A stretch of 64,000 nucleotides of DNA from Planctomycetota bacterium (lineage in GTDB: Bacteria > Planctomycetota > Phycisphaerae > WQYP01), in NCBI GenBank assembly GCA_021790385.1, contig JAJYDW010000012.1, positions 1-64,000 of the forward strand, read 5' to 3'. Of the stretch, positions 15,972 through 18,019 are shown in pieces. Made by a program: the position numbers and the translations under genes. The notes below the pieces were generated by a model, which ran no database searches, was not told where the DNA came from, and saw nothing but the letters and a program-made list of their open reading frames with translations. Each line of letters starts with the position of its first letter. Position 1 is the stretch's first letter.

Positions 15972-16008
15972 TGGTGGAAAAAGGGGAAGAATGGGCTAAA
16001 AAGGGGTT
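15972..16008 (+). promoter_or_regulatory. Candidate MraZ operator: four G-tracts at exact 10-bp spacing
   Basis: TGGTGG / AGGGG / TGGGC / AGGGG with G-runs starting at 15973, 15983, 15993 and 16003. Confidence 0.55.
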
Positions 16009-16083
16009 GAGTGATGCAGGCGTGGGAAACTCTGGTGACTCCCGCTGAAAATAAACAGGCTCGTGGCTTGGCCCGGAATTGCG

Positions 16084-16602
16084 ATGGATAATAGGGTTTA
16101 TTTTCCCGGCACGTATGACCTTGTTATTGATGACGGAGGGCGTATAGCCATTCCAAGCGGTTTGTACAATATTTTTGTCAAAAATACAGTTCAACCTGAC
16201 ACGTTGTACGCAGAGACGGCAAAAAGAGTCGGTAAGAACGGCCAGATGTTTACATGTGTCAAGCTGCTGCGTTATGAAGTTTTGCATGATCGGGCCGGCA
16301 AACTTATGGTTGAATTTACCAGCGACGATGAACGGGATCAATTTGGGGAAATTTATTTTTCCAAGTATAAAGCATTGGAAATCAAGCTGCCCCAGCCACG
16401 TGTTACACTGCCGGCGGAATGGCTTACGCAGCGAAAAACCAAAACGGCACCCAAGGACAAGGCGTTTCTGGGCAACAAAGTAACCTTGACCGGCGCAGGT
16501 GAAGTCATCGAAATTTGGAACCTTGACGAATGGCCGGTGTGGCACGCCGAGAAAGACACGGAAAATGCCCGCGGCAGCGTACGCCAGGCAGCGGAAGCCT
16601 GA
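16084..16602 (+). CDS. mraZ: MraZ-like transcriptional regulator
   Basis: Two AbrB-like halves: GTYDLVIDDGGRIAIPSGLYN and KLPQPRVTLPAEW...NKVTLTGAGEVIEIWNLDEW. Located upstream of rsmH. Confidence 0.75.
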   Translation: MDNRVYFPGTYDLVIDDGGRIAIPSGLYNIFVKNTVQPDTLYAETAKRVGKNGQMFTCVKLLRYEVLHDRAGKLMVEFTSDDERDQFGEIYFSKYKALEIKLPQPRVTLPAEWLTQRKTKTAPKDKAFLGNKVTLTGAGEVIEIWNLDEWPVWHAEKDTENARGSVRQAAEA

Positions 16603-16998
16603 ACTTTGGAATCGCATGGGCGGCAGGAGGCCGCCGGAATCATGCGAGTTCCGCCAACTATACCGCCGAAACCATGGACCGGTTCGGCGGTTACCAAAAC
16701 CGGAGCGACGGATCGCTCTTAGAAATTTGGGTTGACGAGGCTGCATGGACGTTAGCTTCCCAACCTGACTAAGGCACGAAGGGTCGGCAGCCCATGGATG
16801 GGCTGCCGACCGCTTCCTCTGCGACTTAGAAGGCCATCAGACACAGTAACATACAGTCTGTTGGCCCAGGCCGATATCGCCATCTTAAAGCTTTTATCGG
16901 TCAAATACAAGCAGTGACTTTGCTTCAGGAAGGGGCATCGTAGAGCCACGGACGGCGGGTGAGGACATGCAGGCCGATCATGTCCTCGCCCTTTTTTT
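16603..16998 (+). ncRNA. Candidate structured ncRNA or long structured leader between mraZ and rsmH
   Basis: Successive strong hairpins (16612-16647, 16662-16691, 16703-16718, 16782-16811, 16832-16866, 16869-16902) ending in a rho-independent terminator; no plausible ORF. Confidence 0.5.
16957..16998 (+). terminator. Rho-independent terminator
   Basis: GGGTGAGGACATG-caggccgat-CATGTCCTCGCCC followed by T7; 13-bp stem with one G-U. Confidence 0.85.
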
Positions 16999-17077
16999 GA
17001 AGACAAGCGGTGCGTTAGACCGCTTTTAGAGACATGTCATTCGCTTTCGTGAAAAGTTAATGCCGGTCTCTTTATGA

Positions 17078-18019
17078 TTGATGGTCGCCGACTTTATGGA
17101 TGTTCCGGATCATGGTCACGAACCGGTACTCCTGAATGCCGTGTTGAATTTCCTTGCACCGCGCAGAGGCCAGGTGGCACTTGATTGTACTGCGGGGCGA
17201 GGCGGCCATGCGTTGGCTTTGGCAAAAGCGGTAATGCCGGGGGGCTTGGTGCTGTGTGTGGATGTAGATCCTGACAATCTTGCTTATGCCCGTACACGCC
17301 TGGGGCCATGGGGGGAAAACTGTCGTTACTTTCAGGCTAATTTTGCCCAGGCCGACGAGGTGCTTCAAGCGGCAGGTGTATCAGGTGTGGATCTGGTATT
17401 GGCGGATTTAGGGGTATCCACCAACCAGTTGACTCAAGACCGCCATGGTTTGAGTTTTTCGGTTGATGCACCGCTGGATATGCGCTTGGACCCCGAGTTG
17501 ACTATCACCGCCGCCGACTTAATGGCCAAACTTCCGGAAAAGGAACTTGCAGATATGCTTTTCACCCTGGCGCAGGAACGCTGGTCCAGGCGAATTGCCC
17601 GACGCATCGTGCAGGTTCGGCGGACCACACCCATTACCAGCACCCGACAACTGGCAGACTTGGTGCGGCAGGTCGTTCCACCAGTACCAGGGCAGCATAA
17701 AATTGATCCGGCCACGAAAACCTTTCAGGCGCTGCGGATGGCCGTGAACGCGGAACTTGAGAATCTTGGCACCTTGCTAAAGCAGGTGCCGCAATTCATC
17801 AAGCCGGGTGGCCGCGCCGCTTTTATCAGCTTTCATTCGGGCGAAGATCGGCTGGTTAAACACGCGATGCTGGAATGGCAAGCGCAGAACAGGTGCCTTG
17901 TGCTGACGAAAAAACCTGTGATGCCTGACGAGGTAGAGATCGAGTCTAATCCACGCTGCCGCAGTGCCCGGCTAAGGGCGGCAGAATTTGCTGTCTCGAC
18001 CGGTGAGCCACCACAGTAA
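17078..18019 (+). CDS. rsmH: 16S rRNA (cytosine(1402)-N(4))-methyltransferase RsmH
   Basis: HEPVLLNAVLNFL...LDCTAGRGGHALAL...VLADLGVSTNQL...GLSFSVDAPLDMRLDP...FQALRMAVNAELENL...AAFISFHSGEDRLVK. Confidence 0.95.
   Translation: MMVADFMDVPDHGHEPVLLNAVLNFLAPRRGQVALDCTAGRGGHALALAKAVMPGGLVLCVDVDPDNLAYARTRLGPWGENCRYFQANFAQADEVLQAAGVSGVDLVLADLGVSTNQLTQDRHGLSFSVDAPLDMRLDPELTITAADLMAKLPEKELADMLFTLAQERWSRRIARRIVQVRRTTPITSTRQLADLVRQVVPPVPGQHKIDPATKTFQALRMAVNAELENLGTLLKQVPQFIKPGGRAAFISFHSGEDRLVKHAMLEWQAQNRCLVLTKKPVMPDEVEIESNPRCRSARLRAAEFAVSTGEPPQ

Follow-up and report, generated by a model that had tools for sequence, protein, structure and literature searches.

Conserved GGA-loop hairpins between mraZ and rsmH form a structured RNA that is a probable CsrA sponge in Planctomycetota

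We analysed a region of a Planctomycetota MAG that lies between mraZ and rsmH, at positions 16603-16998 of a 64,000-nucleotide stretch of DNA (the window); the region and both genes are on the forward strand. The nearest named records to the source organism are Planctomycetota and Phycisphaerae MAGs. A preliminary description of this DNA had noted a hairpin-dense segment with its own terminator between the two genes, had found that no ORF fits it, and had proposed either a new non-coding RNA or an attenuator uncoupling rsmH from mraZ. Pfam confirmed both flanking genes, and all of the stems listed there were found at their positions; the list lacked the hairpins at 16730-16765, 16945-16956 and about 16921-16937, as well as the loop motif, GGA, that the hairpins share. 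The features of the locus are as follows.

16084-16602, + strand: mraZ (Pfam MraZ PF02381, E 1.6e-5, above cut-off; alternative start GTG at 16063)
16585-16601, + strand: hairpin at the mraZ end, CAGGC-AGCGGAA-GCCTG, spanning the last codons and the stop; loop GGA at 16593-16595; weakly conserved in the genus
16603-16998, + strand: proposed CsrA-sequestering RNA (fold z-score, conserved block, GGA-in-loop enrichment), 3' end at the terminator
16612-16647, + strand: hairpin 1, loop AGGAG; GGA at 16626-16628 invariant in five congeners
16662-16691, + strand: hairpin 2, loop AUGGACC; GGA at 16676-16678 invariant
16703-16718, + strand: hairpin 3, hexaloop ACGGAU; GGA at 16710-16712 invariant, flanking loop bases variable (ACGGAT, ATGGAT, ATGGAC, ACGGAC)
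16730-16765, + strand: hairpin 4, apical loop AUGGAC; GGA at 16747-16749 invariant
16782-16811, + strand: hairpin 5, hexaloop AUGGAU on a 12-bp stem; GGA at 16796-16798 invariant
16832-16866, + strand: hairpin 6, without GGA; loop variable in the genus
16869-16902, + strand: hairpin 7, without GGA
about 16921-16937, + strand: hairpin 8 (small), loop CAGGA; GGA at 16928-16930 invariant
16945-16956, + strand: hairpin 9, GCC-ACGGAC-GGC; GGA at 16950-16952
16957-16998, + strand: intrinsic terminator, 13-bp stem at 16957-16991 (12 of 13 pairs complementary) and T7 at 16992-16998; loop with conserved GGCC(A/G)
17078-18019, + strand: rsmH (PF01795, E 1.2e-87; alternative start ATG at 17096)

The RNA begins directly behind the mraZ stop, at about 16603, and so counts formally as the mraZ 3' UTR. 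Directly 3' of the main terminator, at 17009-17029, we observed another hairpin, without GGA (GCGGTGCGTTAGACCGC, then TTTT), which is shared by the congeners, one of its pairs having changed in a compensatory way, and which may be a back-up terminator. Upstream of mraZ (15973-16026) there are GG(G)-containing repeats (AGGGGA, ATGGGC, AGGGGT) at a spacing of about 10 bp; GGG repeats at 10-bp spacing are present there in three of five congeners (the focal genome, G004 and G003). We take these repeats to resemble MraZ boxes, and therefore mraZ and the RNA may share their regulation, possibly by MraZ itself, although we regard this as a lead only.

The minimum free energy of 16603-16998 was -177.9 kcal/mol, compared with a mean of -133.7 (sd 6.8) for 100 dinucleotide shuffles, none of which was equally stable (z = -6.5). 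This upheld the earlier description of the segment as hairpin-dense, and the terminator of its own was also verified. The region does not encode a small protein: its ORFs are mechanical, their frames are lost to indels of 1-9 nt when congeners are compared, and changes in the stems are compensatory. Nor is it a dispersed repeat, as no second copy exists in the genome and the only matches were a palindromic self-match and one of 19 nt (E 0.69). None of the 4227 families of Rfam 15, the actinobacterial mraW motif included, matched the region at the gathering threshold, and the models of clan CL00106 (CsrB, CsrC, RsmY, RsmZ) had no match in the window.

The same block is present in four congeners, where the RNA region is 0.96, 0.92, 0.84 and 0.86 identical to the window. 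In the same genomes mraZ, where complete, has identities of 0.87, 0.71 and 0.72, and the third codon positions of rsmH of 0.66-0.88. Within the genus the RNA thus evolves more slowly than mraZ (84-96% versus 71-87% identity). The conservation profile of the genus rises right behind the mraZ stop, is complete over 16948-16987 and falls after the terminator; conserved stretches also exist outside the GGA loops, for example 16903-16920. Beyond the genus, the mraZ-rsmH spacer consists of a hairpin chain directly behind mraZ in all 22 family genomes with both genes, starting at most about 10 nt from the mraZ stop and always lying between the two genes. The number, order and length of the hairpins differ between genera; the GGA loops persist.

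Covariation is limited within the focal genus (g1), because the sequence barely changes there. Genus g4 showed 19 doubly changed pairs compared with a shuffle mean of 7.6 (reached by none of 500 shuffles), a partner-sliding control giving at most 5, and genus g2 showed 16 compared with a mean of 5.6, with the proviso that these controls remove kinship between the sequences only in part. The 3' module comprises hairpin 9 (GCC-ANGGAN-GGC) followed by the terminator; most family members retain it, and a family-wide alignment of it was possible. In this alignment GGA is invariant in 16 of 16 rows and the base preceding it takes all four letters, while 7 of the 13 terminator pairs covary. The segment 16603-16998 is therefore a real, conserved structured RNA element. 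Comparison of the spacers of relatives, with the conservation and compensatory changes that it revealed and no known family above threshold, thus backs the earlier proposal of a new non-coding RNA with a terminator; the attenuator proposed with it did not stand as the main role and is a side effect at most, since the terminator is conserved yet the GGA-loop hairpins of the CsrA type, 4-8 in each family spacer, are left unexplained by it.

The loops have a common sequence. A logo of 77 sites from 11 genus representatives reads C-A-N-G-G-A-(U/C)-G, the base after GGA being U or C in 60 sites and G in 11. CsrA selects RUACARGGAUGU in SELEX, mostly as hexaloops in which AC and GU are paired, and RsmE binds ANGGAN hexaloops (PMC7652899); by sequence, the family consensus is close to the CsrA site. 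The MFE fold of the focal region contains five GGA-loop hairpins (seven in the consensus), compared with 0.8 in shuffles, none of 200 reaching five; as a yardstick, E. coli CsrB in the same test has nine, compared with 2.0. Family spacers carry 4-8 hairpins with GGA in the loop (3 in the shortest) and their shuffles about 1, whereas six outgroup spacers carry 0-3, the same as their shuffles. GGA is the commonest triplet in the hexaloops of family spacers (46 of 126). This holds for the sense strand only, the opposite strand having TCC, and outgroup spacers do not show it; the motif was first noticed in alignments and then tested, which makes the first enrichment test partly post hoc. The loop GGAs are invariant in 7 of 7 cases in g1 (five congeners) and in 8 of 8 in g2, with varying flanking loop bases.

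CANGGAYG occurs at 7.27 per kb in family spacers, where the antisense strand has none, and at 0.16 per kb in the genome (2.0 of 3.6 Mb scanned), an approximately 45-fold difference. Over the same 2.0 Mb, when segments containing five or more ANGGA were ranked by their number of ANGGA-loop hairpins, the focal region came first, with four compared with two in the best segment elsewhere. A phylum-wide scan for triple CANGGAYG was too noisy, matching 158 of 392 genomes, largely in coding repeats. We also observed two other GGA-containing sites. Behind another gene of a family member (locus L225; G017:C38:3601-3657) there is a hairpin, GCCACGGATGGC, with a strong terminator, possibly a second, single CsrA site. 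In many family members (for example L011, L015 and L022; 17096 in the window) rsmH starts in ATGGAY, with GGA overlapping the start codon, which could be a CsrA site on the rsmH mRNA or a plain Met-Asp start.

A covariance model of the 3' module (R1) gave one strong match in each of 23 of 28 family genomes, with weaker extras at E 0.01-0.07. The matched genomes include G042 and G043, which lay outside the model-building set and whose spacers carry full GGA arrays. For the genomes with an available rsmH locus, the match was in the mraZ-rsmH spacer. Among about 270 other genomes of the class R1 gave only two weak matches, in G185 and G135, which we rejected as members because they are plain terminators without GGA arrays; the element therefore appears, from these searches, to be restricted to one family. 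When 14 family loci were compared with the 4227 Rfam families, few matches were obtained, of which two were to CsrA-sponge families and fell in the expected spacers, that of G010 matching CsrB (37.1 bits, E 1e-6, threshold 71) and that of G011 matching RsmY (20.3 bits, E 0.84, threshold 57). These sub-threshold matches are suggestive only, since CsrB was not reported when the G010 spacer was searched alone (RsmZ 17.6 bits, E 0.053). A sub-threshold antisense match to Bacillaceae-1 was obtained in G010 only.

The focal genome encodes two CsrA proteins, both with long C-terminal tails and one of them divergent (E 1e-17).

G000:C106:24542-24697 (L049): csrA1
G000:C72:27024-27176 (L172): csrA2

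Residues L4, R6 and R44 of CsrA bind RNA, and both proteins keep all three in an alignment to solved CsrA and RsmE; thus CsrA with RNA-binding residues is present in the same genome as the RNA. At least two CsrA matches were found in 21 of 25 family genomes, compared with 4 of the 16 genomes sampled elsewhere in the class, most of which have one. Searches for FliW detected none in the five g1 genomes, the focal one included; matches to it were weak across most of the family, and G010, G012, G013 and the majority of outgroup families had strong ones. Very weak FliW-like matches (E 1e-6 to 1e-13) adjoin csrA in non-flagellated family members and look, by sequence, as if decaying or repurposed. 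The distribution of flagellin nearly parallels that of FliW, and therefore the loss of FliW probably reflects the loss of flagella. A simple replacement of FliW by the sponge was considered and rejected: absence of FliW tracks absence of flagellin, and those family members that are flagellated carry FliW together with the RNA. That CsrA and the putative sponge remain after FliW is lost suggests that CsrA regulates something other than flagella in those genomes.

From the structure, conservation, covariation, invariant GGA loops, terminator and two csrA genes computed in this analysis, we conclude that 16603-16998 is very probably the gene of a structured non-coding RNA, some 400 nt long, that acts as a CsrA sponge similar to CsrB and RsmZ. 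About seven hairpins would present GGA, in most cases within an A-N-GGA loop of some six bases that a C-G pair closes; the predicted shape is that bound by CsrA/RsmA dimers. The source of the RNA would be either the mraZ transcript, whose 3' UTR it would form and from which it may be processed, or a shorter transcript started at a promoter within mraZ; both would end at 16998. The hairpins may capture about three to four CsrA dimers and thereby reduce the pool of free CsrA; when abundant, the RNA would titrate CsrA off its mRNA targets and so relieve CsrA-repressed mRNAs. The terminator would also limit read-through into rsmH. Several features count against a sponge: some stems are 12-13 bp, longer than typical SELEX hairpins; two hairpins lack GGA; no Rfam sponge model matches the focal RNA; no promoter-like site was found adjoining it; and the genus conservation profile has no conserved block in mraZ just upstream.

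The RNA starts no more than about 10 nt behind the mraZ stop, invariably before rsmH, and its terminator is strongly conserved, which would also suit a cis-acting 3' UTR element with three roles: termination of mraZ transcription, protection of the mRNA and uncoupling of rsmH. The GGA loops would then be incidental or serve CsrA control of this mRNA only. We consider this unlikely: a single hairpin suffices for a terminator, but there are about ten here with invariant GGA loops; the RNA changes more slowly than mraZ itself; and several GGA hairpins in one molecule are better suited to titration than to regulation at one site.

Conserved stretches such as 16903-16920 outside the GGA loops and the absence of an Rfam match are what an unrelated class of structured RNA would show, one with its own protein partner or a catalytic function in which the GGA loops play another role. 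However, persistence of the GGA loops while hairpin number, order and length vary by genus is expected of a sponge and not of a fixed three-dimensional fold, making such a class very improbable. GGA and AGGA are the core of Shine-Dalgarno sequences too, and loops enriched in GGA might thus mimic these and pair with the 3' end of 16S rRNA as a ribosome decoy. This would not account for a random base before GGA or for U or C, seldom G, after it; AGGAGG is rare in the spacers (0.20 per kb), and A-N-GGA-Y in small closed loops is the form of a CsrA site, so that we regard a decoy as extremely improbable.

A CsrA sponge at this locus would most resemble CsrB/CsrC and RsmX/Y/Z of Gammaproteobacteria (Rfam clan CL00106), with which the RNA shares its non-coding nature, multiple hairpins, GGA in the loops, an intrinsic, Rho-independent terminator (T7 and a 13-bp stem, which covaries through the family) and CsrA encoded in the genome. 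CsrB, at 369 nt, is similar in length and has a clear GGA-loop excess in the same test. In contrast to that group, the RNA belongs to Planctomycetota, lies directly behind mraZ and scores below the Rfam thresholds, and most loops of its family read A-N-GGA-Y with a closing C-G where CsrB mainly has CAGGA. TwoAYGGAY (RF01731) and the reverse complement of Bacillaceae-1 (RF01690) are predicted CsrA-binding RNAs of Clostridia and of Bacillales/Lactobacillales (PMC4333381); like the focal RNA they have AYGGAY-type loops and predicted CsrA binding outside Gammaproteobacteria, but with two motif matches rather than about seven, and the TwoAYGGAY model matched neither the focal region nor the family loci scanned. 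UpsM of Rhodobacter sphaeroides (PMC5089854) is also a terminated sRNA, linked to mraZ at the start of the dcw cluster and confined to one family; it differs in lying in the 5' leader upstream of mraZ, and its abstract describes no CsrA-sponge architecture. Another known antagonism of CsrA, the FliW-CsrA-flagellin switch, uses a protein rather than an RNA, one that was not detected in the five g1 genomes.

CsrA RNA sponges had been identified only in Gammaproteobacteria as of 2014, those of Clostridia and Bacillales being predicted without proof (PMC4333381), as were those of Geobacter and Oceanobacillus (PMC5568370). A 2015 survey proposed FliW as the CsrA antagonist of other phyla, among them Planctomycetes, where it is presumed to serve this role (PMC4682653); in the open-licence literature we found no paper joining CsrA, sRNA and Planctomycetota. 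On balance, we favour the view that the RNA represents a CsrA-sponge family of Planctomycetota, not recognisably homologous to the CsrB/RsmZ sRNAs and made as the 3' UTR of mraZ, which would tie CsrA activity to the regulation of the division and cell-wall cluster and would coexist with FliW or outlive it where flagella are lost. If true, titration by GGA-hairpin RNA either evolved repeatedly or is far more widespread than assumed. FliW and sponges would no longer be mutually exclusive, as had been supposed, because G010 and G012 carry both, and CsrA control would be linked to the mraZ-rsmH cell-division locus.
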